A DNA stretch of 64,000 nucleotides, taken from IMG/VR virus record IMGVR_UViG_3300046787_000675, positions 96,706-160,705 of that record, one strand, 5' to 3'. The position numbers were made by a program, and so were the translations under genes. Position 1 is the stretch's first letter, and each line of letters opens with the position of its first letter. Below the pieces are notes generated by a model. The model made no database searches. It was given only the letters and a program-made list of their open reading frames with translations, and was not told the DNA's origin. This DNA is from a virus. Of this stretch, positions 1,336-64,000 are shown piece by piece.

Positions 1336-1338
1336 TAT

Positions 1339-2536: not shown

Positions 2537-2539
2537 CGT

Positions 2540-3574
2540 TTACCTTTTAGCAAATGCGTCGATGTATTTTTCCAGCTCTTTTGCAGAGTTTACGGATAAA
2601 GATTCTATAGCTTCTTTTAAATTAGGGATATCCGTGATTCCAAAGACATCGGATAAGAAGGTTTTTACCTTGTCTTGATTAAATTGACCCAGGCTAAAGT
2701 GTCTACCATTTGCTGTCTTGATAAGATTAGTATTGTATTCATCTATTTCACACATTGCAAATTTATACAGTTTGTGTTCTGGAGGTGTAAATTTATCGGA
2801 ATATTTATGTGTTAAGGAAGCGTGCCTGTCTACAGCGTCCAATGCCGAAGCAATATTCGATATAACATCGGCAGCGATAATACCTGTTTCAGCTGCAGAG
2901 TCCATGGCAACTTTCTCTAACAATAACATAGATTCTACATGTTTAGGGTGGGTGTGTTGGATAGCTACACGGCGTACATTTATCGCTTCTTTAACATCCT
3001 TTAGATCAGACACAGCATATCCAGCCGTTTTCTGTAGTGAGATAACTTTATCCCTGCCTAAATCGAAGTTTAACACTGTAGCGGTGGCTAACGCCTGCTG
3101 AGCTACTTCTTTCCTGATATTATATGTGTGATGTCCTGGCGTCAATATATCATTCGCGATCTTTTGTAGATCCTCGATAGTATCAACAGGGATATCCGCA
3201 TATACTTTATCACCGTCTTTATATTTAATGGAGATACCGTTACTTGCTATTTTCTCTAGTCGCTGTGCCGGTTTAAAAGAATCAAACGGCATATTGTATA
3301 GCTCACATACTTCTTTTATTTTATCGACTACTTCCTGTCTTACCTGGACACCTTCCATAGCTTGTTTCTGTATGTAAGATGCGGACAACCATGTGTCAGC
3401 TTTACTGGCAATAGGAAACATACGCAATACGCTATCAGCAAATTGATTTCTGTTAAGTTTATTGATATTGTCTTCATCTGTTAAGGATGCTTCCTTAACG
3501 AAATCTGGCATAGGGTTTTCACTTACTATTTTATAAAAATAGGATTTGTTTTTATCTTTGATGTAATCAATCAT
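2540..3574 (-). CDS. Head-type virion protein with eight K-x-A motifs
   Basis: A 344-residue helical protein of unknown family. It carries eight copies of the hydrophobic-x-K-x-A motif (FVKEA, IQKQA, LEKIA, LQKIA, LQKTA, LEKVA, LYKFA, LIKTA). This pattern is otherwise concentrated in the head module 46 kb away (protease, scaffold, 414- and 699-residue proteins) and nearly missing in the tail proteins checked. I therefore infer that it is packaged in, or processed with, the capsid although it sits beyond the adhesin genes. A 60-base gap with a possible promoter separates it from the LamG protein. The ribosome site is AGAGGACC before the ATG at 3574. Confidence 0.65.
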   Translation of the reverse strand: MIDYIKDKNKSYFYKIVSENPMPDFVKEASLTDEDNINKLNRNQFADSVLRMFPIASKADTWLSASYIQKQAMEGVQVRQEVVDKIKEVCELYNMPFDSFKPAQRLEKIASNGISIKYKDGDKVYADIPVDTIEDLQKIANDILTPGHHTYNIRKEVAQQALATATVLNFDLGRDKVISLQKTAGYAVSDLKDVKEAINVRRVAIQHTHPKHVESMLLLEKVAMDSAAETGIIAADVISNIASALDAVDRHASLTHKYSDKFTPPEHKLYKFAMCEIDEYNTNLIKTANGRHFSLGQFNQDKVKTFLSDVFGITDIPNLKEAIESLSVNSAKELEKYIDAFAKR

Positions 3575-3593
3575 TTTATGGTCCTCTGTTATT

Positions 3594-3606: not shown

Positions 3607-3634
3607 TAAGAGTTGTCATTTAAATCCAACACCG

Positions 3635-12975: not shown

Positions 12976-12985
12976 AAAAACTCCT

Positions 12986-13597: not shown

Positions 13598-13607
13598 AAA
13601 TTTTTCC

Positions 13608-46713: not shown

Positions 46714-47370
46714 TTATTTAGATTCTGATCGCCGTCTGACTATTGTTTTTTTAGGGGTTTTTGTTGTCCCTGCAACAGTAGGTGTATCTAGTCCTGTTTC
46801 GAACATTTTAGCGTCTTTTAATTTCATGGGTTCTGCTTCTCCTATAACAATTGTAGGAGGTAAACTATCTTCCAGTGTTTTCTTTGTTACTACCTTATCT
46901 TCTTTATCTACTTTGTCGAAAGCTGCAACAGGTTTTAACTGGTTGTCTGAAGACGTCTCTGTTGTTGCTTTAGGGGCATTTTCTTCTTTCTTACTCATAA
47001 TGCTCTCTGAGATAGATACATTATTTTTATCAGCCTGGACATTTACCATACCTTTAGTCTTATCGCCGCGAATAATTTTAACGTCTTTATTCGGTTCTTT
47101 AACTTTATTTGCTACAGCTGCTGCATTAGATGTTTTACCTTCTTTAGCAGTAGGTGTACATGTCTTAAGATTTGTAATTAGAGAGAGGTCAATTAATCCG
47201 TTTTCATATTCGTATGTTAGACATTGTACATCTGCAGCCCGGACACAACTTGCCGGGTATGCTCCGTCTACAACCATAGATTGATCTTTATCTAGATAGA
47301 TACCTTTACCAATATAACGGATTGTGCGAGCTTGAATTTTATTTGTGATTAGGGTTTGTAATGTGATCAT
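46714..47370 (-). CDS. Head-associated protein, 218 aa, unstructured C-terminus
   Basis: Residues 1-70 form an ordered beta-type N-terminus (ARTIRYIGKGIYLDKDQSMV). The rest is Lys/Thr/Pro-rich and probably disordered, ending KTPKKTIVRRRSESK. It follows the capsid gene after a terminator, so it should be made at lower level. It may decorate or connect the capsid. No family recognised. Confidence 0.55.
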   Translation of the reverse strand: MITLQTLITNKIQARTIRYIGKGIYLDKDQSMVVDGAYPASCVRAADVQCLTYEYENGLIDLSLITNLKTCTPTAKEGKTSNAAAVANKVKEPNKDVKIIRGDKTKGMVNVQADKNNVSISESIMSKKEENAPKATTETSSDNQLKPVAAFDKVDKEDKVVTKKTLEDSLPPTIVIGEAEPMKLKDAKMFETGLDTPTVAGTTKTPKKTIVRRRSESK

Positions 47371-47404
47371 TTTTATCTCGGCATTTTTAAGTTTTATAAA
47401 TAAA

Positions 47405-47434
47405 AACGAGGAGACTTTTTATGGTCTCCTCGTT
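47405..47434 (-). terminator. Strong terminator after the major capsid gene
   Basis: A perfect 11-pair stem (AACGAGGAGAC / GTCTCCTCGTT) with an eight-base loop is followed on the minus strand by a T-rich run. It would stop or stabilise most transcripts just after the capsid protein gene, a common way to keep capsid mRNA abundant. Confidence 0.85.
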
Positions 47435-47454
47435 ATAGCGTTTATGCTCTATGT

Positions 47455-48423
47455 TTACGCAGACCAGGCACTGAGTGAACCGGTATGGTCAACACGGGCT
47501 ACAGCTCCACTATTTTTGATAGTAGATCCGAGCATTTCGTAGGCGAACATCTCAAACAAGAAGTTTTCTACTTTTGTAGAGACAGTTACGTCTTCAAAAG
47601 TACAGAAGTCACCGATGAAGTTAGGAGCGGCGAAGTGATAGATACTATTATTAGCGACGAGGTCTTTCTTAATAGTAATATACCATTGCGTACCCATAAC
47701 GTTTCTTTCGCTGAAACCGTTGAGGAACATTTCTTGAGCGAGGTCACCGCCTAACTCAATACGGTCAAGAGCAACGATGTCGTGGATGGTTACGTTGTTA
47801 ACCAAACAAACAGCATCATTGAGTGAGCGATTGGTAGAAGGCAAACCTTTACAACCGTGTGCCAAAGAAGCGCGACTGATAGGACCTGCAGTTACATATC
47901 CTGCAGCACCTACTTCGAGAACGCGTGGGTTAGTGTTAGTAACATCGTTAAGTGGTCCGATGATAGTTTCGACAACAGCCATGAACTTACGGTCTTCTTC
48001 AGCAAGAATGTCTTTCAACATCAAGTCGTTGAAGATTTGTTTGATGTCCATATCGTAGGTCAACAAGTTGACAAAGTCACCGGTGAAACGGTGAGAAGCA
48101 ATCCGGTCGAACATAATCCGATATCTTGGAGCATCAATGTAATGGTTCATAGGAACGGTACCGAATGGGATAGTATACGCAGGCGGAGTGTTTGGCTCTA
48201 CGTCTCGTACAATTACCGGTCTTACGGTATCTGCCTGACGGTCGAAGTCAGACACAGTTACAGATTTAGGTGGAATAATACGACGTGTGAAGCCGTCTTC
48301 TCTTGCTCTTAACTGTAGGAAGCTACTGGCAGAATCCATTGCTTCTTTCTGAAGTGAGCTATCGTTTGAGCGCATGCTGTTAATGAATGCTTCATTGTTA
48401 GCTTTGATTACTGGGTCAATCAT
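47455..48423 (-). CDS. Major capsid protein (HK97-fold)
   Basis: 322 residues. The gene sits after scaffold and decoration-type genes and directly before a strong terminator, the standard place. The protein has a polar N-terminal arm, then the beta/alpha pattern of HK97 capsids with APRYRIMFDRIASHRFTGDF, FLNGFSERNVMGTQWYITIK and a C-terminal TFEDVTVSTKVENFLFEMFA. The N-terminal arm holds one hydrophobic-x-K-x-A motif (SLQKEAMDS, residues 24-28), which would release about 28 residues if cut after it. It is shorter than many jumbo-phage capsid proteins. Confidence 0.8.
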   Translation of the reverse strand: MIDPVIKANNEAFINSMRSNDSSLQKEAMDSASSFLQLRAREDGFTRRIIPPKSVTVSDFDRQADTVRPVIVRDVEPNTPPAYTIPFGTVPMNHYIDAPRYRIMFDRIASHRFTGDFVNLLTYDMDIKQIFNDLMLKDILAEEDRKFMAVVETIIGPLNDVTNTNPRVLEVGAAGYVTAGPISRASLAHGCKGLPSTNRSLNDAVCLVNNVTIHDIVALDRIELGGDLAQEMFLNGFSERNVMGTQWYITIKKDLVANNSIYHFAAPNFIGDFCTFEDVTVSTKVENFLFEMFAYEMLGSTIKNSGAVARVDHTGSLSAWSA

Positions 48424-48445
48424 ATGAAATAATCTCCTTTATTGA

Positions 48446-48991
48446 TTATACTCTAGCAGGGTTGTAACACGGCCAGAAGTTAATTACTTGTTGTCCATAT
48501 ACGCTTGAGTAAACAGACTTAGCAACTACCCCTACACAGTTAGTATCAAGAGGGATTTTACCCGAACTTAAAGATACTGGGGCGAGGAGACCTTCTTGCT
48601 CTGCACCGGCATTAAGAATTTCAGCACCGGTTAACGGGGCGTTGATCGCGAAGTCAGCCGCATCGAAATTCTCTAAATCGACAGCCGTAGTCATGAGTTC
48701 ATAACCGCCTGAAGCTACGAATGCACTGTTTACACCGCCGGATGTATTACCAGTATCGGAAGCAGCATCATAGTCAGTTGAGTCATTGATTGCAAACATA
48801 GGCATAGCAACAAGAGATGAATTTAAACCTTGACGGAATAAACCGGCAGAAGTTAATGTAATCAGTGCGCCTCTACGGAAATCAGCATCATTTGCTCTTC
48901 CCGCATAGAATTGAAGGTCGTGCATACCGTCTGAGCCTGATACGGCTGTCAAGAGGTATGTATAGTTTTGACCTGGGTTAAGTTGAAACAT
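48446..48991 (-). CDS. Capsid decoration/stabilisation-type protein, 181 aa
   Basis: A Gly/Ala/Thr-rich beta protein (NYTYLLTAVSGSDGMHDLQF ... GQQVINFWPC) located directly before the capsid gene, a position where small proteins that clamp the capsid or scaffold are found. Codon use is similar to the capsid gene. It starts 22 bases after the capsid gene begins. Tentative, by position and size. Confidence 0.6.
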   Translation of the reverse strand: MFQLNPGQNYTYLLTAVSGSDGMHDLQFYAGRANDADFRRGALITLTSAGLFRQGLNSSLVAMPMFAINDSTDYDAASDTGNTSGGVNSAFVASGGYELMTTAVDLENFDAADFAINAPLTGAEILNAGAEQEGLLAPVSLSSGKIPLDTNCVGVVAKSVYSSVYGQQVINFWPCYNPARV

Positions 48992-49002
48992 ATATGTTCT
49001 CC

Positions 49003-49455
49003 TTAGTTATTTAATTTTTGTCTTAGACGAGCCATTGACTGATCCCAATTGACATCTGAATCCTTACTACCCTGTACTGTAGCAGTAGTGGGGGATGCTT
49101 GTTTGTCTATAGAACCTAAGCTAGGCAAGCCTTTCTTATTTACTGTATTCTCTGCAAGTTTTTCCAAGAAGGTCCCTAAGTACGCGTTATCTGTCATAGC
49201 GGCAGATATAAACCCTTTACGGTTAGCTTCTTTGAGAAAACCAGCTTCGATTACAGCATTTGCTAATTTGTCCGCACTGTCAGCGTTTATTCCTGACTTT
49301 ACGACAACCTGTTGGGCAGCTTCTTTCTGATTGAAAGCACCTTCTACCTGTGTTAAAAGATTTGTTAATCTGTTAATTTGGTTTGCTTGCTTTTCTATCA
49401 AAGCTTGAGAGGCTTGAATATACTGAGCCACTTCGTGCTGTACTCTTATATCCAT
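49003..49455 (-). CDS. Head assembly protein with K-x-A motifs, 150 aa
   Basis: A helical protein with a coiled-coil N-terminus and four strict hydrophobic-x-K-x-A motifs (IEKQA, FLKEA, LEKLA, IDKQA) plus two near matches. It lies between the scaffold-type gene and the decoration-type gene and looks like an internal scaffold segment processed during maturation. Function is inferred from motif density and position. Confidence 0.6.
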   Translation of the reverse strand: MDIRVQHEVAQYIQASQALIEKQANQINRLTNLLTQVEGAFNQKEAAQQVVVKSGINADSADKLANAVIEAGFLKEANRKGFISAAMTDNAYLGTFLEKLAENTVNKKGLPSLGSIDKQASPTTATVQGSKDSDVNWDQSMARLRQKLNN

Positions 49456-49474
49456 AATTAATTCGCCTCCTTTA

Positions 49475-50407
49475 TTACGATAAACTATTTTTTAAAATAG
49501 ATTTTATCGCATTGACATTGTTACGTTTTTGTTCAGCTGCTGTTTTTTGAACTTCACCTTCTGCTGGAGCGCTAACGCCTTCTGCGTTTATCTCACTCAA
49601 GGCTTGGGCAAGATCTTCTTCGGTAGCTCCTTGGGCTTTTAATTCCTCAATAATAGCTACTGCTTCTTGGAGGTCTTCAGGCGTAGCACCTGATTCTGCC
49701 AAAATATTGGAGATCTGTTCTAATTCTGCTTCGCTTGGAGCTCCACCTTCAGCAGGAGCGGCTGCGGCTTCCGGTGGTAAAGCTTCTGGAGCTGCAGCTT
49801 CTGGAGGTAAAGCATCAACAGGTAAAATATCTTCTGGAGTTTCCATAGCAATCTTATCTAAAAGATTACCGATACCGCCGGCTTGTTGGATTAGAGGGGC
49901 GAGGCTGGCATTCTTTTGAAAACCTTCTTCATCTCTCTGTCTGGCAGCGAAACCTGCTAAAAAAGATAAAGCATAGTCATTACCTTTTTGGATAGCTACT
50001 TTTTCAAGTTCGGTGTATTGTTTTTCTACACTGGCTTGTTTTTGCATACCCATTAAAGTATTAACCAGGCTGTTTGCTACTTTAGTGATTCTTGCTTGTT
50101 CTGCTGCTGTTTTTTGCACTTGGCCAATTTCCTCTTTAACAATATTACCGATGTTGCCTTGTGTAACTTTATCATCGACATATAATGTTTTTGTGCCTTG
50201 ATCGTCTGTAGGTTTGTCACCCATAGATCTGTTATTATCTTTCTCATCTTCGATAGTTGAGCCAGACGCTTTAGCTGCTTTAGATTGTTCAAGACCGAGA
50301 TTGGTCTGTTTATCTTTGGCAACAAATGAAGTATCCATAGCTACTTTTTCACGAAATGGGCGCAGATACTGTTCAATCGCATCCATAGTATCTAATTGAT
50401 TTGACAT
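49475..50407 (-). CDS. Probable scaffold protein, 310 aa, K-x-A rich
   Basis: An acidic, helical protein with a Pro/Ala-rich stretch near residues 200-230 (DALPPEAAAPEALPPE) and seven hydrophobic-x-K-x-A motifs (VQKTA twice, ITKVA, MQKQA, LEKVA, FQKNA, LDKIA). Its location between protease and capsid protein and its helical, charged nature fit a capsid scaffold. The VQKTAAEQ sequence occurs twice, near residues 105 and 288. Role inferred. Confidence 0.6.
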   Translation of the reverse strand: MSNQLDTMDAIEQYLRPFREKVAMDTSFVAKDKQTNLGLEQSKAAKASGSTIEDEKDNNRSMGDKPTDDQGTKTLYVDDKVTQGNIGNIVKEEIGQVQKTAAEQARITKVANSLVNTLMGMQKQASVEKQYTELEKVAIQKGNDYALSFLAGFAARQRDEEGFQKNASLAPLIQQAGGIGNLLDKIAMETPEDILPVDALPPEAAAPEALPPEAAAAPAEGGAPSEAELEQISNILAESGATPEDLQEAVAIIEELKAQGATEEDLAQALSEINAEGVSAPAEGEVQKTAAEQKRNNVNAIKSILKNSLS

Positions 50408-50505
50408 TGTGTTCTACCTTTAATTTTTAGAACTAACTAGTTCTAGATTAATAATTTTAGATAACCTTATCGATTATCTAGTGCACTATTGCTAACCAGC
50501 TTATA
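50408..50505 (-). promoter_or_regulatory. Hairpin-rich gap between protease and scaffold genes
   Basis: 98 non-coding bases hold AGAACTA/TAGTTCT (50429-50444), TAGATAA/TTATCTA (50458-50480) and the palindrome TAGTGCACTA (50479-50488), with a second TAGTGCA at 50507-50513. Such a dense set of hairpins between a low-level protease and an abundant scaffold gene suggests an RNA-processing, attenuator or promoter region. Confidence 0.4.
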
Positions 50506-53100
50506 CTAGTGCATATTATACATAGTTACTAACTTAGCATCTTTATCCCTGCCGCTGAGGTATGATAACTCATACTTAGCATATTCTTTTGCAAGATATA
50601 CGCTTTCGGCGGTTGGCTGTGTTAGTTTCTTGCAGTTTGCTTCTTTAGATATAGGGTTAACAACGATTATTTTTAATACTCGTTTATTTAATGGTCCTTC
50701 ATCCATAGAATGACTATCTACAAGATTACCTATTATATCATCTAGACCAGACCAATGACCTGTTTCTTTTGGTGTATATGATCCGTCTTCTACTGCCTCA
50801 GTTCCTTCCTCTTTTAATTTCTGAAAGATACTAGGCAAAGCGCTTGTTATATCCTCAAGACCCTCGATGTTTCCTTTAGGTTTCTTGAGAACTATCCTTA
50901 TAAACGATTTAGGAGGTAGTAATATACCTTTCTTATTACATCTGCTTATAACATCGTCTAACGGATAATTGCAAAGCTTACACATAGACTCTTCGTCTAA
51001 TTCGTCCGAAAAGCTATTTGATAGTAACTTAACATCACTATCTGCGTGTTCAAGCTGTATTCGTTTTTCCATATCAGCTAATTTCTCTAATAAGCGTGCT
51101 CTTCTGCCCACTTCTTCCCCTGCCAGCTTATCAATTAAGCTATGCGGGATATATAAACCTTTATTAATTTCTCTGTCAATTGCGAATACGTCTTCGCTTT
51201 TATAATTCTCTGAAGCTACTTTAGATAGACCAAATGCTATTCTATCCGCAGGTTTATCTACACAAGATATGTCGTGGAAGTGAGGCTGGTCATTATACAT
51301 AAATATTTGACTGCCTTCTTTAGTAAGTTCCAATTTATTATATTTTACATGGTTACAATAATCTGATAATACTTTTGCTTTATTGCCGCATACAGAACAG
51401 TTATGTACTGCTACTCCATTGGCTATGTAGGATTCGTCACCCTCTACAGACATATTATACACAACTTCATCTACAGCTTCAATCTCCCTTATAGACACAA
51501 CAGGTGTATATACATAATCACCTACCAACCTAGTCTTGGTAGCGGTTGCCCTAGTAGACCAGGCTGTAATGTATCCTGCTTTTACGGATAGATCTTTAAG
51601 CTCTTCTAAAAGGTCCCTCGACAGACAAACTACAAAAATATTTCCCGAGCTACTATAGTCCGAATTATAATAAGGTTGTCTATTTACAGATATACCGAAC
51701 CCTGCTGACGCAGCTTGTCTTGTTAAAGTATGTGCTAAATTTCTAGATGTTACTGTTATTCGTCCGTACTGTTTATCTACATCTACATGTCCGTCGGAGT
51801 CTAACATACCTGCTACAAAATTTAGTGCTTGTTTAGGTGGAAGAACGCCTGTTAATGTTTTATATAAGCTATATTCCTTACAATATTTTCGACAAAGAGT
51901 AGCTAATCTCTGATCATACATAGATAATTTTACAGCTCCTTTATCATCATATTTACGGCATTCTTTACCTGTTATTGCATATAAAGTAGACGCAACTCTA
52001 TCTATTATAGCTGGGTGTTTTAGGTCTAATGTAAAACTAACCCCCATATCTTTAATAGGATCTTTATCCTTATTCTTCCCTCCTCGCTGCTTAATGAGGT
52101 GCCCATCTCCGGCATACATTCCTAATATATACGCTTCATCCTCAGATATATCAGTAATATCAGCCTTAGCAACAGGGTATACTAGGCAATCTCCTATTCT
52201 TAGATCCTGCGCAGCTATCCACTCTGGAACAGCTATATACTTAGAACATACAGCACATATCAAACTTCCATCTTTAGGAACGCATTTACGTTTACCTGTC
52301 GCGGTACTTCCTTGACATACTGTTAATTTATCTCTGGGGACTACTAAGTAAGGGTGGTTACCTGTAACGTAAGACTCTTCTGAGATATCCCCTGAGGATA
52401 TAATACTATACATAGCTCCTGAGTAAATATTACGCATGGTTGTTAAAACCTTCTTCCATGCCCCGGTATGTGTACGGACATTGTCTCCTTGTTCTATGTC
52501 TTCTATATTTTTTAATCCATGTTCTGTTTCTATAGAAGTACCTTTAGTAAAACACACGTCGTAAGGTAAACCGGCACCCATACTCCAGAAGACATTGCCT
52601 TTGTCCGATGCAAGTTTATTTAACTCGTCTGACCATAGTTCTTCCGGGAGTTTAACAATTAGCTCACCTCTATCCATTTTATCGTTATATGCTTCCAGAA
52701 CAACTTCCCCAAGAGGTTTACCATTCTTTCTACCGTTTACATGGTTTCTGTAAGGTTTAGCGTACTTTAAGAAAGTGTTATGATACTCTTTTAAACCGCC
52801 TCCCAGGAGCATGCTTTTCGGACCTTTAGGTTCTTCAAATTCAACCCGGCGTGCTTCTTTATTAAAGTAGTCCGCGTTGTTATTAGCTCCGTATCTCTCT
52901 CCGGATCCTGTAGTAATTAAATGTACAAAACCAAAACCTTTCTCCGGCTTTATATCTGCTGCTTTAAACAGGAAATAGTCGTCGGAGGCGATCTTCTGCA
53001 GCTCGTGTCTATCAAGTCCTTTAGCGAAACTACCGATAAGATGAGAAGTCTTGCAGATATCCTTAAAAGTCTGAGAAGGTTGTATGTACTTATTTAGCAT
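50506..53100 (-). CDS. Head maturation protease interrupted by an intein
   Basis: 864 residues; removing the 385-residue intein leaves 479. The host part has candidate catalytic His120 (YRNHVN), the P-x-G-E-V strand and the nucleophile-type DISCVDKPADRIAF segment (S612) typical of prohead proteases, plus a zinc site split by the intein: C568-x2-C571 ... C582-x-H584 (CSVCGNKAKV ... YCNH). It should process head proteins during maturation. Eight hydrophobic-x-K-x-A motifs lie in the host parts and none in the intein. It lies between two K-x-A-rich proteins and the scaffold. Confidence 0.75.
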   Translation of the reverse strand: MLNKYIQPSQTFKDICKTSHLIGSFAKGLDRHELQKIASDDYFLFKAADIKPEKGFGFVHLITTGSGERYGANNNADYFNKEARRVEFEEPKGPKSMLLGGGLKEYHNTFLKYAKPYRNHVNGRKNGKPLGEVVLEAYNDKMDRGELIVKLPEELWSDELNKLASDKGNVFWSMGAGLPYDVCFTKGTSIETEHGLKNIEDIEQGDNVRTHTGAWKKVLTTMRNIYSGAMYSIISSGDISEESYVTGNHPYLVVPRDKLTVCQGSTATGKRKCVPKDGSLICAVCSKYIAVPEWIAAQDLRIGDCLVYPVAKADITDISEDEAYILGMYAGDGHLIKQRGGKNKDKDPIKDMGVSFTLDLKHPAIIDRVASTLYAITGKECRKYDDKGAVKLSMYDQRLATLCRKYCKEYSLYKTLTGVLPPKQALNFVAGMLDSDGHVDVDKQYGRITVTSRNLAHTLTRQAASAGFGISVNRQPYYNSDYSSSGNIFVVCLSRDLLEELKDLSVKAGYITAWSTRATATKTRLVGDYVYTPVVSIREIEAVDEVVYNMSVEGDESYIANGVAVHNCSVCGNKAKVLSDYCNHVKYNKLELTKEGSQIFMYNDQPHFHDISCVDKPADRIAFGLSKVASENYKSEDVFAIDREINKGLYIPHSLIDKLAGEEVGRRARLLEKLADMEKRIQLEHADSDVKLLSNSFSDELDEESMCKLCNYPLDDVISRCNKKGILLPPKSFIRIVLKKPKGNIEGLEDITSALPSIFQKLKEEGTEAVEDGSYTPKETGHWSGLDDIIGNLVDSHSMDEGPLNKRVLKIIVVNPISKEANCKKLTQPTAESVYLAKEYAKYELSYLSGRDKDAKLVTMYNMH
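51400..52554 (-). mobile_element. Intein with LAGLIDADG endonuclease in the protease gene
   Basis: Starts at C183 (CFTKGTSIETEHG) and ends VAVHN (H566-N567) before C568, leaving DV|CSVCG. It contains the Hint splicing blocks (TGNHPYLVV near 246-254), two LAGLIDADG-type motifs (ILGMYAGDGH and FVAGMLDSDG) and an extra four-Cys cluster (C262, C273, C282, C285). The Hint elements support splicing; homing activity is inferred. Confidence 0.9.
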
Positions 53101-54334
53101 CGTCCTTACCTTTATTTTTGGTATCTTCAGCTACAGGTTTTTTATCTTCTTTGGCAGGTTGTCGCGAATCTGCCAGATCTTTTTCAACCTTATAAGCTTG
53201 ACCGATCTCATATAAATCTTTACGACCGTTAGTCTCTAGTTGTTGTAACATTAGAGATGATGCTGCAGCCGGGCTATTTGCCAATAATACTGGATGACTG
53301 TCAGCTAAGGCATTCCACGCCCCTACTATTTGACTATGTGTATAGTTTTTAAAGTTAGGATTGTCGTTTATAATGCTATAGAGCGTTCTTTTAGCTTCCA
53401 GAGCTTTTATCTTATTATAATAACTTGGATCCAATGCATCTCCGACAGTTTTTTCTTTGGTAGGTTGTACAAATAAAGCTTTCTCTTTATTGTCACCGAC
53501 ACTATTGGCCAAGGAAGCGGTTAAAAATCTTTGGAGGTTATCCGATACAAAGTTAGCTTCTTTTTGAAGTTGTTCGTGCCATTGCTCTGCCCGCGCTAAT
53601 TTATGCGCTGATTCATAAGCTCTCTGCATAGAAAGAAAAGGCTCTTCTGCAGGAGGGAAATAACCGGAAGCAGTTTTCTGAAGGCATTCATCTGCAATAG
53701 GGACATTCAGCCTGGCGGATACAATCTTCATCATTTTAGCTCCTACCTCCGGATAAATGTTTACAGCCTTACGAGCTGTTTTTTCCAGGGTTTTAGGAAG
53801 CATATAACTACAGGTGTCGCAAATCTTATCTATAGCTTTCATAAAATCATATTTGTGTTTATTGAGCTCAAATTTAGCTACCTTTTCCATATTACCGAAA
53901 AAGTCTGCTTGTTGAGTTAAAGCCCTGGTATAGGAGCTTGCGCTAAGTTCTGGATCCTTACGGTAGACTTCTTTAGTCTTAGCCTCTTTAAATAAAGGAC
54001 TGAGTAGATCTACTGTATTGAGGTTAGGAGGTAACGAAAAAGACCTTTTTGCCTCTTTCTGTTTTTCTTCGTAGATATTAGATACTATGACAGATGTATC
54101 TGCCAAGTCGAAAGGATGATGCCGTGTATCGGCACTTGCCTCTTTCATAATATGTACTGCTTTAGCTTTATTGAATCCTTCGACCATTCTAGCTATAAAA
54201 TTAGGTGTGTAGTTTTCGCGACGTGCAACTTTCTCTAGTGCCTCATTAGGCGTATCTCCCTGTTTAGTAAAGGCTATAGCATCTGTAACGGCACTGATAA
54301 GTTTATTCTGTTCTGTTGGACTGAGTGTTTTCAT
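53090..54334 (-). CDS. K-x-A-rich helical head protein, 414 aa
   Basis: Helical throughout, with seven strict hydrophobic-x-K-x-A motifs (LEKVA, IMKEA, LFKEA, MEKVA, LEKTA, LQKTA, LQKEA) and one near match. It overlaps the protease gene by 11 bases. No family is recognised; it may be an internal core protein cut by the protease. The high density of the motif suggests that it is a substrate or a head-targeted protein. Confidence 0.65.
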   Translation of the reverse strand: MKTLSPTEQNKLISAVTDAIAFTKQGDTPNEALEKVARRENYTPNFIARMVEGFNKAKAVHIMKEASADTRHHPFDLADTSVIVSNIYEEKQKEAKRSFSLPPNLNTVDLLSPLFKEAKTKEVYRKDPELSASSYTRALTQQADFFGNMEKVAKFELNKHKYDFMKAIDKICDTCSYMLPKTLEKTARKAVNIYPEVGAKMMKIVSARLNVPIADECLQKTASGYFPPAEEPFLSMQRAYESAHKLARAEQWHEQLQKEANFVSDNLQRFLTASLANSVGDNKEKALFVQPTKEKTVGDALDPSYYNKIKALEAKRTLYSIINDNPNFKNYTHSQIVGAWNALADSHPVLLANSPAAASSLMLQQLETNGRKDLYEIGQAYKVEKDLADSRQPAKEDKKPVAEDTKNKGKDDAK

Positions 54335-54343
54335 TTTTATTTC

Positions 54344-56443
54344 CTATTCGGTATGTGCTGTTGCAATATCTGTAGATAGATTACCCAGTGTATTTTCTGC
54401 TTGATCCGGGTGGAATGTTGTTTTTTCTTTGAGGAAAATAACAAGGTCGCCTGTTGCTAAGAATACTTCTTTAAGATGAGAATGTAATTCTTTCATCTTG
54501 TCCTTTCCATGTCTATCCTCAAAGGCATCGTTATGCCAGTAGTACAGAAACAATAGTCGTCCTAGTGCATCCAGACCTTTAATCAAGGCGGAAGTATAAT
54601 CTTTACGTAGTTCCGAAATATCTGCTTTATCGACTAATTGTTTTATAACAGATACATCGAGTACTTCTTTTATACCTGACCCTGCGGCTTCCTGTGCTTT
54701 ATTAATAGCTTCCTGTGGTAATATTGCTTTACCTTTTTTAGTTTGGATTGTCTCAACAATAGGTTGTTTTTCTTTACCTCTTGGCCCACCCATGAAAGGT
54801 TTAAAAGAAGAATCTCGGTATGAGTTCAGATTAAAGGCAGCGGATTCTTTATATAAATATCTTTTCTTATGTCCCGGCGAGCTATGTGCTTCTTTTAGCA
54901 TCCGGATAACATCTTGACCTTCTATCCCGTAACCTTCACATAGTATTTTTGCCATGGCTTCTTTAGGAATAAACGGTGTATTGCCGTTTGCATCCGTCAA
55001 GCTTCCGTAGTTGGCATTACTGCCCATATTTACTTCAACACAGCCTAAACCTTTAGACGTATATGCTTTGATTGAGAATAGGGAAGGCATGCCGTATTTA
55101 GGTTCGGACTTTCTATTTTGTACAAACATACGGCAATCATCCGAAGGTACATATAATTTATCTTCTTTAGCTATTAGTTTACCTTCGTCGGTAAAAACAA
55201 CTAACATTTCCTTTCTATTGGAAAGACCGTCATAAAGATTAACATAGATATTGCCGGAGAAGTCAGAAGCATAACGACTGAGATCTGCTTTAATAACATT
55301 ATGTGTGGAGTGGACGAATAACAGGCTGGTCATATCTTTGATATCGCGTATAGACCTGGCTGAAGCTTTCATTCCACCTTGTTTGTTTTCGATTTTATTC
55401 CTGTCTAATCCTGTTGTGGGTTTAGCGAATACATCTGCAGCTTTAACCCAGAAAAAGTCGTGACTGGAATCAATAGGAATAAGTGCAACATGAGAAGTTG
55501 TATTCTTACAGTGTCCGTCTGCCCCTCTATTAGGTTTAACAATAATATACTTCTCCAGTGTCCCGTCCTTTAATAATACATCATAGATACCAGGGGAAGT
55601 AGGATTTTGGAAATTTCCTGAATCAACTTCTTCGTGAAATACTTTGGTAAAATTAGTCCTATGATCTTTGATGTATATGCCGTTTTTAACGAGTAGTTTT
55701 TTCTCGTTATCGTCTAGCTCTTTAGCTTCTTTGCTTAGTTTATCCTTGATGTAGATTACTTTATTCGGTTCTACTACAGGAATAACATCTCTGTATATGA
55801 TCGCCTGTTTAGCTACTTTCTCGATATGGTCTAAGCTATGTACTTGGAATAGAGCATTTGCGAATTCTGGATCTTTAAGGAATGTATTGACAAATAATGA
55901 ACTTGCCTCTTTAGGTAATGCTTCTAATGCTCCGTCGAGAGAAGGAAGATATTGTTTCTCTACGCCTTCCCCTAATCTCTTAAACATGTTATCTACAGCT
56001 TCTTTTTCCAGGAACGAATTATTACCAAAAGAAGACGCAGCTAATTTAAATATAGAACTATCTGGAGAAAAGGTATTGGTGTTCTCAGAAGATGCTCCTA
56101 AACCGTTGTTGTTAATTTCGCTATTGGTTGCTGTAGAGCCAAGTATCTGTACTCCCTGGTCATTGATAGCTGCAATGAATGTATCTGTTGCAGGTACAAA
56201 CATATCTTTATTTTTTATGTATAGTAACTCAAATCCTTCCAGAGCACCTTTTATAAAGAATATCGGAATATATAACCAGACATTATTAACCACAAAGGCA
56301 TAAATACCTACGGCTTTTGTATCGTCGTCTGTTTTATCAATAATCTGAAATCCTACTCTATATTCTACTAGAGACGGAAGTCTTTCGTTAAGCTCCGCGT
56401 CAACTAACTGTCCAAAACGTTGCTCAAATGATATCTCTGCCAT
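54344..56443 (-). CDS. Large head-module protein, 699 aa (not a clear portal)
   Basis: It lies where a portal gene would be expected, but I do not see a portal-like wing/stem pattern. The N-terminal about 110 residues have a distinct beta/alpha domain (YAFVVNNVWLYIPIFFIKGA ... ELLYIKNKDMFVPA), and seven hydrophobic-x-K-x-A motifs are scattered from residue 130 (LEKEA, LPKEA, IEKVA, LSKEA, IPKEA, MLKEA, IFKLA). A role in the head core or connector is possible. It follows the beta' C-terminal gene after about 115 non-coding bases. Confidence 0.55.
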   Translation of the reverse strand: MAEISFEQRFGQLVDAELNERLPSLVEYRVGFQIIDKTDDDTKAVGIYAFVVNNVWLYIPIFFIKGALEGFELLYIKNKDMFVPATDTFIAAINDQGVQILGSTATNSEINNNGLGASSENTNTFSPDSSIFKLAASSFGNNSFLEKEAVDNMFKRLGEGVEKQYLPSLDGALEALPKEASSLFVNTFLKDPEFANALFQVHSLDHIEKVAKQAIIYRDVIPVVEPNKVIYIKDKLSKEAKELDDNEKKLLVKNGIYIKDHRTNFTKVFHEEVDSGNFQNPTSPGIYDVLLKDGTLEKYIIVKPNRGADGHCKNTTSHVALIPIDSSHDFFWVKAADVFAKPTTGLDRNKIENKQGGMKASARSIRDIKDMTSLLFVHSTHNVIKADLSRYASDFSGNIYVNLYDGLSNRKEMLVVFTDEGKLIAKEDKLYVPSDDCRMFVQNRKSEPKYGMPSLFSIKAYTSKGLGCVEVNMGSNANYGSLTDANGNTPFIPKEAMAKILCEGYGIEGQDVIRMLKEAHSSPGHKKRYLYKESAAFNLNSYRDSSFKPFMGGPRGKEKQPIVETIQTKKGKAILPQEAINKAQEAAGSGIKEVLDVSVIKQLVDKADISELRKDYTSALIKGLDALGRLLFLYYWHNDAFEDRHGKDKMKELHSHLKEVFLATGDLVIFLKEKTTFHPDQAENTLGNLSTDIATAHTE

Positions 56444-56558: not shown

Positions 56559-59540
56559 TTATAATCGTGTAGGATCCATCAATTTACTTGCATAACCTAC
56601 ATCGTCATGTTTACTGGTTCCACCTAATCTGATATCTTCCAGTAAATTTTTCTTTAAATTGAAACCTGTTAATTTATTTTTGAAGTCTGGGTCCGTTCCC
56701 GGTATATCCATAATTCTCATCGGTGCCGGTTCGAAGCCCGGCGCAGCGTCGTGCGTTTTAATACTTTTAATCTGTTCTTCTTTTAAAAACTTTGCAACCT
56801 TAGGTGTTATCCGTGTTCCAATACTGTAATGTAATACAGGCTGCTCTAGATATTTACCTACAGCTCTATCGGGAGATAGCTCGATGGAATCTTTACGCGG
56901 TTGGTAGTTTCGCTGAATGTCGCTATATGTGACAATATCATCAATGACATGGCCGTTAGGTCCTTCGATATCTGTTATTTTTACGCGGTCAAAGAATCCC
57001 CTAGCTAAAGTTTCTACATGGCGTTGTTTAACATTTATTCCGTTGTTTTTTAATATCTGTCCAAATTTATTAACAAAATAAAGACGCGCATCTCCTATCC
57101 CTTTATACTTTGCCATCTCAGCGGGATTAGGTGTTCCGTCAGTTAACATATCTCCTTGTTCAATCTGATCGCCAACAGTAACTAATACATCCCGAGCAGG
57201 ACTAGCATAGAATGCCTCTCCGCCTACAGTTATGTACTTGCCTCCTTGAGGGGCGTCCGATATACTCTGTACTATTCCATCTTTATTAGATAATACAGAT
57301 CCTCCTCTAAAATGTTTAGGTACTTGAAGGAATTGATTGACTTCCTCGAATCCGGATAATTCATCGGAGAACTGTTTACCCCCAATAATGCCCCCTGTGT
57401 GTTTGGAGGATAACCCTGACTGAGTTAAAGGTTCAGACAATAAACGACCTGTATCAACACCTACATAGGCTCCTATTTCTGGAAAATTACCTTTATCTCG
57501 TTTTCCGGCACAGCGTCTACATATCCCGTTACCTGATTGACATGTTATTAACGATCTAACAAGTAATTTCTTATCTTGGATAGCGGGTAGATGTTTTTTT
57601 GTTATAGTTGTTCCTGCAGGTACATTCCCTACATCCTTAGCAAGCACTCGACCTATAACATCGCTGTTGTCGCCCAACATAATAATACCTTTGTCGGATG
57701 CGCCGCAATCGTCTTCGACTACTTGTACACGAGAAGAAGCTAAGGCTAATTGTTTACCTAAAAATCCTGATTTTGCTGTCATGAACTGAGTGTCAGAGTT
57801 AGATACTACCATCCCGTTAGCCAATACAAATAAATGGTCTTCGTGATCTACTTCAAGATCGTATGTAGAGCGAGTGCCTAATACTGATGTACTAACATAA
57901 TTTAATCTTGTATCTTGTGATCTCCCGTCGGATTTTACAGAATGGATTATCTCTCTGACTTTTTTACCTTTTTTTCCAATAGTAGTTAGATATTGACTTC
58001 TATACAACACCGATTGTCTATCGGAATAACTTAATACATAAGCGTCTCTAGATGCCTTTATAGTATACCCGTAAGATGATGATTCGGGTATATTTTTTTT
58101 ATCTATATGAATTATATCTGTACAATATATTCCTAGTCTAGTCTCTAGTAGATATCTAATTCCTTTGAGTAACTCTTCGGATGTAGAGTGATATCTGATA
58201 ACAGGGGTTGAAGTAATTCCACTTATTGTACTTCCGCCATCAGCTTCGAAAAATCCATTTATAAATGCACATACACTATTATTATCCCATGTCATAACTT
58301 CTGGAGGTATTACTTTTTCATATGATTTTTTACCTAAAAGACCGAAATTAGCTATCCATGCTTTAGCACTATTAGAGGAGAATTTATTTTTTCTATCTAA
58401 ATCGAGTAACACATATTCGTAGGATGGCATTTTCGATTTTCGATTACGCTCTTTATATTTTAAATACCAATTTAAAGGTTGTAATAATTCATTTAAGGCG
58501 TCGACTAACTCAATATCACTAGTAGTTAAAGTTATAGAATTTTGGACACTAAAGTGCCCATCCCCTATTAATAAACCGAGTAGAAACGCTTTAGTAGTAT
58601 CGTACGGAATCCCATTAAAATTATTTCCTTTTGATAAAGTTATACCGAAATTCTTTTTAGCAGTACCAATAGGATATTTATCTTTTTTGCGGCGAAGTAA
58701 ACTACCAGTAGTCCATTCCCCCAATACTTTATGATCTTCTGTACATTCTATATATCTATACGAGTGTGTTCTTCCTAGTCTGAATCTATATGAGTAAACT
58801 TGTTTTATTCCGTTATCGTAGGTATTGACTACTTGGGTAGGGAATGTATTCCCTTTCTTATCTGAACCTAGAACATATTCTCCTACGTTTATATCTTCAA
58901 TCGATTTCTGTGTCCCATCAGCCATGCGTACTTTAGTTCCTTTTGCGAGACAATACCCTTTTCTCGAAGAGAAAGACCCGGCAAAATACTCCATGGGTTT
59001 TGCCCCTTGAGCGTACCCATTGATACCTGGAACAGGAATTGGCCTACCTGCTTGGTCGGCTACAAGTATGTCGCCAAATAATAATTGTGTTAGCTGTACA
59101 GGAGAACCTCTAAAACCGTGCTTAATACTTTCCCCTAAAGAATTGTTTCCTTTACTGGTGCTATCAAGGACGATCTTGTTAATTACAGGCATCTCTTTAC
59201 GCATGTATTCTACAATCTCTTTGTTTTTCTGCTCGGGAGATTTCCTTCTATCCTGTTGGATGTCGACAATATTATTTTTTATAACCTCGCGATATTTCTT
59301 TACTTCATCTGGCATTTTTAAATCGGATAAACGTATAGACGCCAGTCCTCCTTGTTCTGTTCCGGCTACCCTGGAAACATTCATAAGGGACTGCATTGTA
59401 TCGATATATTTGTCAGGATGTCTCTCGGCCATTGCCAGGAAAAATGTCTCTGCAGATTTCTTGTTAAAGACTCTATCCGGATCTCGTAAGTCTTCCGGAA
59501 TTATATCGTTTATCAGATATTGACCTAATGTGCGCGCCAT
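56559..59540 (-). CDS. RNA polymerase beta' subunit, C-terminal half, with intein
   Basis: 993 residues; 608 without the intein. The host sequence holds the bridge-helix region (SSRKGY | SDTQFMTAKSGFLGKQLA, corresponding to ARKGLADTALKTA), then VVEDDCGA, and a complete second zinc site C612, C667, C674, C677 with the same internal spacing as bacterial beta' (7 and 3 residues). A trigger-loop-like EIGAYVGVDTGRLLSEPLTQ ... GLSSKHTGG follows. This is the catalytic C-terminal half of a multisubunit RNA polymerase. The matching N-terminal half is a separate gene (62995-64000). Assignment strong; the beta subunit is not in the window. Confidence 0.9.
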   Translation of the reverse strand: MARTLGQYLINDIIPEDLRDPDRVFNKKSAETFFLAMAERHPDKYIDTMQSLMNVSRVAGTEQGGLASIRLSDLKMPDEVKKYREVIKNNIVDIQQDRRKSPEQKNKEIVEYMRKEMPVINKIVLDSTSKGNNSLGESIKHGFRGSPVQLTQLLFGDILVADQAGRPIPVPGINGYAQGAKPMEYFAGSFSSRKGYCLAKGTKVRMADGTQKSIEDINVGEYVLGSDKKGNTFPTQVVNTYDNGIKQVYSYRFRLGRTHSYRYIECTEDHKVLGEWTTGSLLRRKKDKYPIGTAKKNFGITLSKGNNFNGIPYDTTKAFLLGLLIGDGHFSVQNSITLTTSDIELVDALNELLQPLNWYLKYKERNRKSKMPSYEYVLLDLDRKNKFSSNSAKAWIANFGLLGKKSYEKVIPPEVMTWDNNSVCAFINGFFEADGGSTISGITSTPVIRYHSTSEELLKGIRYLLETRLGIYCTDIIHIDKKNIPESSSYGYTIKASRDAYVLSYSDRQSVLYRSQYLTTIGKKGKKVREIIHSVKSDGRSQDTRLNYVSTSVLGTRSTYDLEVDHEDHLFVLANGMVVSNSDTQFMTAKSGFLGKQLALASSRVQVVEDDCGASDKGIIMLGDNSDVIGRVLAKDVGNVPAGTTITKKHLPAIQDKKLLVRSLITCQSGNGICRRCAGKRDKGNFPEIGAYVGVDTGRLLSEPLTQSGLSSKHTGGIIGGKQFSDELSGFEEVNQFLQVPKHFRGGSVLSNKDGIVQSISDAPQGGKYITVGGEAFYASPARDVLVTVGDQIEQGDMLTDGTPNPAEMAKYKGIGDARLYFVNKFGQILKNNGINVKQRHVETLARGFFDRVKITDIEGPNGHVIDDIVTYSDIQRNYQPRKDSIELSPDRAVGKYLEQPVLHYSIGTRITPKVAKFLKEEQIKSIKTHDAAPGFEPAPMRIMDIPGTDPDFKNKLTGFNLKKNLLEDIRLGGTSKHDDVGYASKLMDPTRL
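57798..58952 (-). mobile_element. Intein with LAGLIDADG endonuclease in the beta' bridge helix
   Basis: Starts C197 (CLAKGTKVRMADGTQKSIED) and ends GMVVSN (N581) before S582. The Hint N- and C-blocks (CTEDHKVLG; DHLFVLANGMVVSN) and LAGLIDADG motifs (FLLGLLIGDGH; AFINGFFEADG) are present. The penultimate residue is Ser, not the usual His. Length 385 residues, the same as the protease intein. It lies directly in front of the bridge-helix segment that reads SDTQFMTAKSG. Confidence 0.9.
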
Positions 59541-60929: not shown

Positions 60930-61565
60930 TTATTTATTATCCAATTTATATAGATAGCCTGCTATATAGGCTTCTTTGTTTACATTACTATCTTGTAAAG
61001 TAATGCTGTGCGCTTTCTTTTCCAATGTAGATTGCGAATACGTGTTCGTTTTTATAGTTTTTACAGCTTTCAAACGATTACCGTTTATAGGCGCATATCC
61101 TCCGGTCATATGTCCCAGAAGAAATATTTCCAGTTGTTTGGGTGTCTTTGTCTGAAGTTTATCCCAGCCGTCCCCTTCTTCCGATGTCGGTTTAGATACG
61201 GTATCTACCTCTGCGATAAATATATGATTATCTTCTCCCGCATATTTATTTGCCCAGCTTCCCATTGCCTTCTGCATTGAGGGAGGCCATTTCCAGACAA
61301 CCTTAGAAATTAATTTAATATTTTTTAACGTTATCCCGCATTCCTCTAATGCCTCTCTGCGAACTGCAGTTACCGGACCTTCTCCTTCGTCTATTCCTCC
61401 TCCCGGTACCTCAACATATAATCCGCCTGCAGACGATCTCTTAATACGTGCAACAATAGAGCCATCAGGCATTATAGCGAATACCTCAGCTCGTTTTCTA
61501 TAGGGGAGCGATGCCCCCTTTAGTGTTGTTAATTTTACGGTTTCATCGCGGGCGTATTTTAACAT
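60930..61565 (-). CDS. Nudix hydrolase with C-terminal virion-like tag
   Basis: 211 residues. The Nudix box G56-x5-E62-x7-R70-E71-x-x-E74-E75-x-G77-I78 is exact (GGIDEGEGPVTAVRREALEE then CGI), so it should hydrolyse a nucleoside-diphosphate-linked compound. Its C-terminus (VNKEAYIAGYLYKLDNK) repeats the tag found at the N-termini of the proteins at 61571 and 62795. A further LEKKA motif is present. It lies between the two RNA polymerase half genes; possible substrates include NTPs, capped RNA ends or dinucleotides, not determinable here. Confidence 0.85.
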   Translation of the reverse strand: MLKYARDETVKLTTLKGASLPYRKRAEVFAIMPDGSIVARIKRSSAGGLYVEVPGGGIDEGEGPVTAVRREALEECGITLKNIKLISKVVWKWPPSMQKAMGSWANKYAGEDNHIFIAEVDTVSKPTSEEGDGWDKLQTKTPKQLEIFLLGHMTGGYAPINGNRLKAVKTIKTNTYSQSTLEKKAHSITLQDSNVNKEAYIAGYLYKLDNK

Positions 61566-61570
61566 ATTGT

Positions 61571-62341
61571 TTATTCTTTTTGTCTACCTTGCATTCTGTT
61601 GATAGTGTCCAGGACTTTTCCGGCTTTGCGTTTATTGTCGGATTGTTCAAGTAAACTACTTCCTAGCCCGACGGCATCGGCTCCAAGACGTGTACCTAAA
61701 CCTGCCAATGCAAGTTCTGGTTTGGCTGTTAGTGCGCCTGCAAGACTGACTAATTGACCAGCAGTTTGTAGTCCTGTTCTTGCTGTTTCGCCTGTTAAGT
61801 TTTTGAATTTTTTATCAGGATCTGTAATTGCCTCCGCTACTTCTGTATATCCGCTATCTGCCCATCTAGCTCCAGGCATTATTATACTCTTCAATGCCGA
61901 CTTTATACCTCCAGTATCAGATATTCTCTTTAGTTCCGGTGTAAGTTCTTTAATATCTGCAGTAGCCCCTTCTGCCGCTAATCTTTCAACTTTACTCCGT
62001 CTTAGTTTACGAGCAAGAAGTAAGGCAGCCAATCCACCTACTCCTCCTGAAATACCGGCAATTACAGCTCGTTTGCTATTACTCATATTTTTACTTAGAT
62101 AACCCCCTAGAGCAACTCCGCCAATAGAGCCTGTAAGCCCAGATACCATGTCGGATGCTACCGGATGGTTAGTGTTAACGGAAGTATCACCGGCTGCTTC
62201 GGCAAGTGCTTCCATTCTACCGGAATCTGTATTACCGTTAAAGAATAAGCTACGTTGGTCTTTAGATCTATCGAGGAGTTCCTGGATTGTTGGGTTAGCT
62301 TCTTTATACATGTACCCATTTAAAAATGCTGTCTTATTCAT
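61571..62341 (-). CDS. Glycine-zipper protein with N-terminal tag, 256 aa
   Basis: It begins MNKTAFLNGYMYKEANPTIQ, the tag shared with 62795 and with the Nudix C-terminus. A Gly-rich membrane-type region follows (VSGLTGSIGGVALGGYLSKN ... VIAGISGGVGGLAALLLARK, residues about 65-115) and a basic helical tail. It may be a virion-carried membrane protein. It overlaps no neighbour closely and starts four bases after the lipoprotein gene ends. Confidence 0.6.
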   Translation of the reverse strand: MNKTAFLNGYMYKEANPTIQELLDRSKDQRSLFFNGNTDSGRMEALAEAAGDTSVNTNHPVASDMVSGLTGSIGGVALGGYLSKNMSNSKRAVIAGISGGVGGLAALLLARKLRRSKVERLAAEGATADIKELTPELKRISDTGGIKSALKSIIMPGARWADSGYTEVAEAITDPDKKFKNLTGETARTGLQTAGQLVSLAGALTAKPELALAGLGTRLGADAVGLGSSLLEQSDNKRKAGKVLDTINRMQGRQKE

Positions 62342-62794: not shown

Positions 62795-62989
62795 TTATTT
62801 TTGAGATAAACTTAATAAAGCTTCAAGTTGGGCTTTCTTATAAGGGTCGAAATAAACACCTTGATAAAAAAGATTGTTCGGGTCAATAGAGTTCTCTAAG
62901 AAAGCCTCTGCAGTAGGCCTATAAGGAAGTACGGAAGCGTCGCGTGACTCTTTATACATATATCCATCGAGGTAGGCTTGCTTGTTCAT
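62795..62989 (-). CDS. Tagged small protein, 64 aa
   Basis: It begins MNKQAYLDGYMYKESRDASV, nearly the same tag as the 256-residue protein, then a short alpha/beta piece. Otherwise no family is recognised. It sits six bases after the beta' N-terminal gene. If the tag is a virion- or protease-directed signal, this protein is likely carried in the capsid. Confidence 0.6.
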   Translation of the reverse strand: MNKQAYLDGYMYKESRDASVLPYRPTAEAFLENSIDPNNLFYQGVYFDPYKKAQLEALLSLSQK

Positions 62990-62994
62990 TTTTC

Positions 62995-64000
62995 TTATTT
63001 CTTTATGTCTAATATTTCGATCGGATCGTCTATTTTTATTAAACCTTTACTGAAGGCTTTAATGGCGTCATCCTTTGTTTTAAAAATAGTCTTCTGTTTA
63101 TTCCTGTCCGGGTCTTTGGAGGCAAAGTATAAACCTTGTAAATATTCGTTACCCAGCATGTAAGTAGGTTTATCTGTTCCGCTAAGGATAAGATTCTTAT
63201 CCGGCATCATGCGATCGATAGCTTCCTGTACTGCATCTTCCGATACAGGGACGGAGTAGGACATTGTGTTCGATAATATAGTTCCGTCGACAGACATGAA
63301 AGTTTCATATCCAGGAACAGTTAAATCGTATCCTGTTTCTACTTTTTCGGTGTTTTCAACCGATACAACGTATGTCCATGTAGTATCAGTATCCTCGACT
63401 ATTCTCTTCCAGTTATTAAATGGTTCAAGAATATCAGCAGGAGTATTACTATCGATAAGATCTAAACATTTCTGAGCCGACTGCCGACTAATATAACCTG
63501 ACTTATTACTGTCTGCGAGAGCATGATAGAGACCTGTACATTGTCTTCCGTGTTTTAATTTCGGGCTTCTATTATATTCTGCTAACTTAAGGAAAGCTGC
63601 AAGGTTTCTCTCTATAGGGACTAAATCGCTTTTTATATAAGCTGCCGCAGTATTATCAGGCGTAACCTCGAACAACTTTCTATGTTTATCTTCATGCGCA
63701 ATACAGAGTTCATCCCGTAATATAATTAGTTCTACTGCCGATATTGTAAGCATCCAACTAATATTATCACACTTAGTTGTTTTACCATAAGATATACGGG
63801 AGGACACACCTAACGACATAAGTAGCTGTTTTACCTCCTGTACCAAGCGAAGAGATATAGAAGAGAAAGATGTCATAAGTTGTGGTTTACTTTTTCCGTT
63901 AGATATAGATATACTTCCGTCAGAATCAAACAGTCCAGATAACAGCCCTATTTTAAACTCTCTAGGGGAACATAACCAAAAGGATGGTAAGTGTTTTTTA
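62995..64000 (-). CDS. RNA polymerase beta' subunit, N-terminal half, with intein (partial)
   Basis: The frame is open to the right edge, so the 5' part and about 60 percent of the intein-containing gene are outside. Inside, after the intein, the host sequence TMSYSVPVSEDAVQEAI ... MLGNEYLQGLYFASKD matches the segment that follows NADFDGD in beta' (QMAVHVPLS ... DVVLGLYYMTRD). Its C-terminus (KAFSKGLIKIDDPIEILDIKK) is the end of the N-terminal half. A separate gene (56559-59540) holds the other half, so the subunit is split as in some giant phages. The DFDGD motif itself is just outside the window. Confidence 0.85.
   Translation of the reverse strand, partial: KKHLPSFWLCSPREFKIGLLSGLFDSDGSISISNGKSKPQLMTSFSSISLRLVQEVKQLLMSLGVSSRISYGKTTKCDNISWMLTISAVELIILRDELCIAHEDKHRKLFEVTPDNTAAAYIKSDLVPIERNLAAFLKLAEYNRSPKLKHGRQCTGLYHALADSNKSGYISRQSAQKCLDLIDSNTPADILEPFNNWKRIVEDTDTTWTYVVSVENTEKVETGYDLTVPGYETFMSVDGTILSNTMSYSVPVSEDAVQEAIDRMMPDKNLILSGTDKPTYMLGNEYLQGLYFASKDPDRNKQKTIFKTKDDAIKAFSKGLIKIDDPIEILDIKK
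63268..64000 (-). mobile_element. Intein at the NADFDGD site of beta' (3' part)
   Basis: Ends DGTILSN (63268-63270 is the final Asn) before T+1, giving the extein T-M-S-Y-S. A LAGLIDADG motif, FKIGLLSGLFDSDGSIS, lies at about 63907-63957. The C-terminal Hint block is YDLTVPGYETFMSVDGTILSN; the penultimate residue is Ser. The 5' part and the splice start are beyond the edge. Confidence 0.85.

Follow-up and report, generated by a model that had tools for sequence, protein, structure and literature searches.

A clade-wide hydrophobic-x-Lys-x-Ala motif in phage head proteins, probably the cleavage signal of their prohead protease

Introduction

The prohead proteases of phages T4 (gp21), phiKZ and SPN3US (gp245) recognise a short shared motif and process themselves (PMC5694885, PMC10052503), and all three cut after Glu (PMC5694885). 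The capsid protein of HK97 is cut between K103 and S104 (PMC10275583); the sequence at this cut, TFNK/SLG (a slash marks a measured or predicted cut throughout), has a hydrophobic residue, any residue and Lys ahead of the bond. The capsid protein gp27 of Bacillus phage G, which has been grouped with HK97 gp5, has 282 residues and its mature form, defined by N-terminal sequencing, has 255 (PMC5646251), so that 27 are lost. In T4, a capsid targeting sequence, an N-terminal leader of 10–20 residues, is removed in the prohead (PMC5694885). Here, we analyse a motif of the form hydrophobic-x-Lys-x-Ala (h-x-K-x-A) that recurs in the head proteins of a virus from the IMG/VR collection (record IMGVR_UViG_3300046787_000675, 160,705 bases). 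The window, that is, the whole stretch of DNA analysed, is the last 64 kb of this record. We conclude that the [L/M/F/I]-x-K-x-A sites are very probably cleavage signals of the phage's own prohead protease, which is encoded in the same gene cluster. No description of the motif was found in the literature searched, whose coverage of subscription journals was limited.

Results and Discussion

Motif excess in head genes of the window and its relatives

Counted in its strict form, [LIVMF]-x-K-x-A, the motif occurs 38 times in the head module without the intein, compared with 4.93 occurrences expected from 2,000 composition-preserving shuffles of each protein (z 15, maximum 16), which bears out the view of the initial annotation that its density is far above chance. 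With the 344- and 540-residue proteins included, 50 sites stand against 6.9 expected. Among all residue pairs at spacings from 1 to 6, K..A shows the strongest over-representation in the head set (63 versus 25). The recount returned the numbers first obtained by eye for the scaffold-type (7), 150-residue (4), 414-residue (7), 344-residue (8) and 540-residue (4) proteins and for the capsid protein, with its single site near the N-terminus, whereas the 7 sites first counted in the 699-residue protein, which is indeed motif-rich, were too few (9), as were, slightly, the 8 of the protease extein (10). The 385-residue intein within the protease has 0 sites, as annotated; it serves as an internal negative control and rules out that the motif is an intein feature. 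Head specificity, also proposed initially, holds in part. The remaining open reading frames (ORFs) of the window, when pooled, have 23 sites versus 16.0 expected, but the 218- and 181-residue proteins of the head interval have 0 sites, the portal gene (positions 12936–14771 of the record, outside the window) is not enriched, with 0–2 sites, and some proteins outside the head module have the motif near their N-termini.

Relatives of the capsid protein are found in five IMG/VR loci (48–63% identity) as well as in Salmonella phage Arash and Vibrio phages D69, D148 and D181 (26–27% identity), and head-gene enrichment is present in seven of seven loci examined, including Arash and D69. Furthermore, an alignment of the protease reached 212 loci, 80 of which were kept, and each of these 80 has more motif sites than shuffled versions of its ORFs, which supplies the shuffled control in homologous phages that the initial annotation had asked for. 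Among actinophage homologues (E3, Sebata, Stormageddon) and in Rctr197k, no clear enrichment was found.

The 1,051 non-redundant ORFs from these protease-relative loci were selected independently of the motif. They contain 1,948 h-x-K-x-A sites versus 525 expected (3.7-fold, z 51); the excess is 4.4-fold for [LMFI]-x-K-x-A and 11.9-fold when Ser is added behind the Ala. Several head proteins look Lys/Ala-rich and helical, and the pattern could in principle be a by-product of composition or coiled coils. However, composition is kept in the shuffles, and the reversed motif, A-x-K-h, reaches only 1.12-fold. Replacement of Lys by Arg (1.07-fold), Glu (0.96-fold) or Gln (1.02-fold), or of Ala by Ser (1.01-fold) or Gly (1.02-fold), brings the motif down to chance, and h-x-K without the following x-A is at only 1.12-fold. 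The chance of such an artefact is thus negligible, and we regard an origin by chance or composition as ruled out. Signals with Glu at P1 are likewise not enriched (h.E.A 0.96-fold, [LI].E 1.15-fold and [AS].E 1.03-fold, the latter two at 1.13- and 1.01-fold in non-motif-dense ORFs), and we rejected T4-like cleavage after Glu. The motif is real and clade-wide.

Conserved sites in the capsid protein and the protease

As judged from its profile match (Table 1), the capsid protein of the window is an HK97 family capsid protein, and it is homologous to Arash gp226. Its sole motif lies in the N-terminal arm, where K26 and A28 are 100% conserved among 38 unique capsid proteins with identity to the window protein down to 25%, and P3 is M, L, H, I or V. 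The propeptide predicted from this site has 26 residues in the window phage and 27 in Arash, close to the 27 measured for phage G.

The protease gene adjoins the capsid and scaffold genes, and the loci of relatives anchored on the major capsid protein also contain it. PHROG 18299 (head maturation protease) matches five of five aligned exteins, with a best E-value of 6.6e-7 and one at only 0.09. An AlphaFold2 model of an orthologue (G001), built with 45 sequences, has a pLDDT of 82.6, with a confident core spanning approximately residues 50–240, whereas residues 1–40 and the linker 244–257 are modelled with lower confidence; an earlier model from three proteases was poor (pLDDT 44) and was not used. 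In a Foldseek search of predicted viral structures (BFVD), the G001 model yielded 107 matches at E ≤ 1e-3, including phage G Gp19 (E 7e-12); many of the matches are annotated as prohead or head maturation proteases. By profile and predicted fold, the protease belongs to the prohead (head maturation) serine proteases, the HK97 gp4–T4 gp21 group. Ser169 and His117 (G001 numbering, as for R141, P175 and D177 below), which we assume to be catalytic, are invariant in the 45 proteases and are also present in the phage G and actinophage homologues. The intein is inserted before the Cys of a conserved CSxC, ten residues past Ser169.

Two of the protease sites are conserved in position (Table 1). At the first, the invariance of K36 and A38 matches that of Ser169 and His117 in the 45 sequences, which have 23–36% identity to the first; the second corresponds to residue 238 in G001 and lies on the last core strand of the model. 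Given the extent of the confident core, both sites flank it.

R141, P175 and D177, the last eight residues past Ser169, are invariant in the clade and differ in the phage G and actinophage homologues. We dropped them as candidate residues of a Lys pocket, since phage G lacks them though its protease, gp19, has the motif (7 sites versus 0.8 expected).

Residue preferences and the bond predicted to be cut

Flanking preferences were derived from 179 motif-dense ORFs. As these were chosen by the motif, Lys, Ala and the hydrophobic class are circular in this set and the flanking preferences are not; the circular positions are covered instead by the 1,051 ORFs. At P3, Met is preferred over Leu, Phe and Ile, in this order, and Val is hardly used; P2 favours Glu, Gln and Val; P1 is Lys; P1′ favours Gln, Thr, Val and Glu and avoids Gly, Asp, Pro and Asn; P2′ is Ala; and P3′ favours Ser, Glu and Ala and avoids Pro, Ile and Val. 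Proline is thus avoided at P2, P1′ and P3′.

The invariant site in the capsid arm, the flanking of the protease core, the selection of Lys rather than Arg, Glu or Gln and of Ala rather than Ser or Gly, and the avoidance of Pro strongly favour a protease cleavage signal, the first of three roles that the initial annotation had proposed for the motif. Another of them, a core-binding site, is a possible role but is not needed to explain the data. A related possibility is that the motif is an uncleaved docking peptide through which head proteins attach to the capsid protein, the scaffold or the protease during prohead assembly. Many copies per protein, the persistence of motif-bearing proteins in Arash virions and the presence of the motif in a tag resembling a targeting signal would all suit docking. 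By contrast, the sites lie on either side of the protease core and in the N-terminal arm of the capsid protein, which is where related phages are cut; the preferences for beta-branched residues and Ser and the avoidance of Pro appear to resemble extended binding to a protease; and a binder would have no need of a site where the core of the protease itself ends, yet 41 of 48 proteases have one. We therefore regard docking as very unlikely.

With somewhat less confidence than in the cleavage signal itself, we place the cut directly after the Lys. The protease might recognise the motif and cut another bond, for example after x or after Ala, as the preferences reach Ser at P3′ and the phage G capsid protein is not cut after Lys. 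This is unlikely, because proteases of the HK97 and T4 types cut directly behind the third residue of motifs of the h-x-K or A-x-E style, which here is Lys.

Comparison with described prohead proteases

The protease shares its broad group with HK97 gp4 (by the annotation of the structure matches), and the predicted cut after Lys with a hydrophobic P3, removing an N-terminal segment of the capsid protein, is like that of HK97 gp5. In HK97, however, P2′ is Leu and the scaffold is a domain of the capsid protein, whereas Ala is near-obligatory at P2′ here, and the site is found in tagged proteins and in scaffold-type proteins that are separate from the capsid protein and have several sites each. 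As in T4, phiKZ and SPN3US, one short motif is common to the capsid protein, the protease and other head proteins, but those phages cut after Glu (A-x-E in SPN3US), whereas P1 here is Lys and h-x-E-x-A is at chance. Phage G gp19 and gp27 are homologous to the protease and capsid protein, with a propeptide of similar length and a motif-rich protease; unlike in the window phage, the phage G capsid protein is cut without Lys at P1 and neighbouring head genes are not generally motif-enriched. Thus, Lys at P1 has a precedent in HK97, and what is new is the extended K-x-A code across many substrates, together with the tag described below.

Several observations weigh against cleavage at these sites. 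Site positions in scaffold-type proteins are not fixed among orthologues, and the protease model has no match to solved structures in a PDB fold search. Residue 27 of the phage G capsid protein, at the measured cut, is Ala (VALA/QAMANP), so that Lys at the cut is not universal. In Arash, the motif-dense Gp242, Gp097 and Gp218 are well recovered from virions. Finally, coverage of the Arash capsid protein, which the published percentage puts at 266 of 307 residues, would fit a missing 27-residue propeptide plus 14 other missing residues, but it fits equally a single missing tryptic peptide of 41 residues (residues 237–277), in which case the propeptide was seen; coverage does not decide between the two. 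Arash virions were digested with trypsin (PMC10585845), and because trypsin too cuts after Lys, the predicted new ends look like tryptic ends and ordinary trypsin proteomics would miss the predicted processing. The motif-dense Gp220 and Gp225 gave few of the unique peptides expected (6 of 23 and 2 of 15), which would fit a shredded scaffold, but low copy number fits equally.

A shared N-terminal tag and a proposed model of head maturation

Several proteins outside the head module start with a tag of the consensus MNKxA[FY]xxGY[LM]xKxA, and more than 20 proteins with dissimilar bodies carry it. In seven genomes, the first 60 residues of the proteins (98,000 residues) contain the pattern G[YF][LMIV]xKx[AS] 17 times, compared with 7 times in the 283,000 residues further in, and the bodies of the proteins bearing these 17 tags show no BLAST similarity among one another. 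A scan for relatives of the tagged 256-residue protein found none, as expected if sharing is limited to its tag. The tag is present in closer relatives of the window phage and was not found in Arash or D69; the genome G005 alone has approximately a dozen tagged proteins. An IMG/VR-wide scan with a DNA pattern for the first part of the tag only, MNKxA[FY]xxGY[ML], returned 17 stretches on about a dozen contigs, several of which are genomes of this clade; 13 of the 14 distinct matches stand at the start of a reading frame, and nearly all run on into xKx[AS], which was absent from the search pattern. A 252-residue protein (record 12102–12860) adjoining the portal gene has a tandem pair of tag-like copies at its N-terminus and a glycine-zipper segment.

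Like the capsid targeting sequence of T4 and the N-terminal 30 residues of P1 DarB, the tag is a short N-terminal leader; as in T4, it is found on otherwise dissimilar proteins and ends in the motif of the protease. It differs from the T4 leader in sequence and in the number of tagged proteins, up to a dozen per genome, and here both targeting and removal are predicted. These features lend independent, partial support to head targeting, the remaining role proposed in the initial annotation, and by analogy with T4 the tag may serve to bring unrelated proteins into the head. The fuller scenario, which we somewhat favour, is that a portable leader of 13–15 residues, MNKxA[FY]xxGY[LM]xK/xA, loads up to a dozen unrelated proteins and is removed by a Lys-specific maturation protease with an extended P3–P3′ code (h-x-K/x-A-S), constituting a cargo-loading system independent of that of T4 and with another cut rule.

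We infer the following order of events. The scaffold, protease, core proteins and capsid protein would assemble into a prohead, in which the protease would release itself by cuts at K36 and at K242 of the extein, where its core ends. The freed protease would then cut the scaffold and core proteins at many sites, and each capsid subunit would lose 26 residues by a cut between K26 and E27, so that the shell is emptied and matures. Tagged proteins and others with a single N-terminal site would enter the prohead as cargo and shed a leader of approximately 13–17 residues; a protein bearing the tag-type leader MNKLAYYKGYMEKEA is predicted to lose 13 residues.

Other motif-bearing proteins and neighbouring genes

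Table 1. Features of the head module and other motif-bearing proteins (window coordinates)
Feature	Position	Strand	Observation
Major capsid protein, 322 aa	47455..48423	-	Profile A2 match to the phage G major capsid protein gp27 (PDB 6wkk), E 7.7e-8
LQKEA, sole capsid-protein motif	48340..48354	-	Predicted cut after K26, 26-residue propeptide lost
Prohead (head maturation) protease, 864 aa including 385-aa intein	50506..53100	-	479-aa extein with 10 sites; profile and fold matches
LQKIA, K36, between N-terminal propeptide and catalytic core	52987..53001	-	Motif at this column in 47/48 non-redundant proteases
LSKVA, extein residue 242, C-terminal end of catalytic core	51214..51228	-	Motif at this column in 41/48; low-confidence linker behind
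LEKLA, extein residue 288, further C-terminal	51076..51090	-	Motif at exact column in 10/48; K281/A283 invariant in alignment A1
Intein	51400..52554	-	Hint/intein and LAGLIDADG Pfam matches
Scaffold-type protein, 310 aa, 7 sites	49475..50407	-	Orthologues in three relatives retain 3-4 sites
Head-core protein, 150 aa, 4 sites	49003..49455	-	Motif count
Head protein, 414 aa, 7 sites	53090..54334	-	Family members in D69 (311 aa) and Arash (308 aa), 9 sites each
Head protein, 699 aa, 9 sites	54344..56443	-	Orthologue of virion protein Arash Gp218; not portal
344-aa protein, 8 sites	2540..3574	-	Orthologues in three relatives with 7-10 sites
Glycine-zipper protein, 540 aa	35956..37578	-	One N-terminal site (K13), three C-terminal
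MDPAMMG-repeat protein, 242 aa	60189..60917	-	15-17-residue pre-sequence ends in motif, LQK/TAYAPP; conserved in 4 orthologues
Tag MNKTAFLNGYMYKEA of 256-aa protein 61571-62341	62297..62341	-	N-terminal pattern
Tag MNKQAYLDGYMYKES of 64-aa ORF 62795-62989	62945..62989	-	N-terminal pattern

The 540-residue glycine-zipper protein, with sites near both termini, is a candidate ejected protein trimmed at both ends. A second type of leader precedes a proline-rich repeat protein and reads LLQK/TAYAPP, MEK/EAYAPP, LTK/EAYAPP and MNK/EAAVPM in four orthologues; like the tag, it is similar in kind to the capsid targeting sequences of T4. A NUDIX hydrolase (window 60930–61565) starts with MLKYA and has two more sites, LEKKA and VNKEA; it is possibly an enzyme cargo of the head.

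Multi-subunit RNA polymerase genes are located at window positions 56559–59540, adjoining the head module, and at record positions 1–6303. The beta and beta′ subunits of Arash are among its most abundant virion proteins (PMC10585845), suggesting that the polymerase may be packaged in the window phage too. The beta′ gene at 56559–59540 has, by eye, an apparent Hint-like insert, and 62995–63876 has an intein/LAGLIDADG match. At both ends, the record breaks off within large ORFs of a related family (record 1–6303; window 62995–64000), as if one gene had been split in a circularly permuted contig.

Biological implications

The motif can be read as a code that tells which proteins enter the immature head in a large phage clade with poor annotation. 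It predicts the mature termini of the capsid protein and the protease, and points to small proteins as possible cargo of the head that might be injected into the host. Since Salmonella phage Arash is cultured, the prediction is directly testable. If the tag does target proteins to the head, it would offer a means of filling phage particles with chosen proteins.

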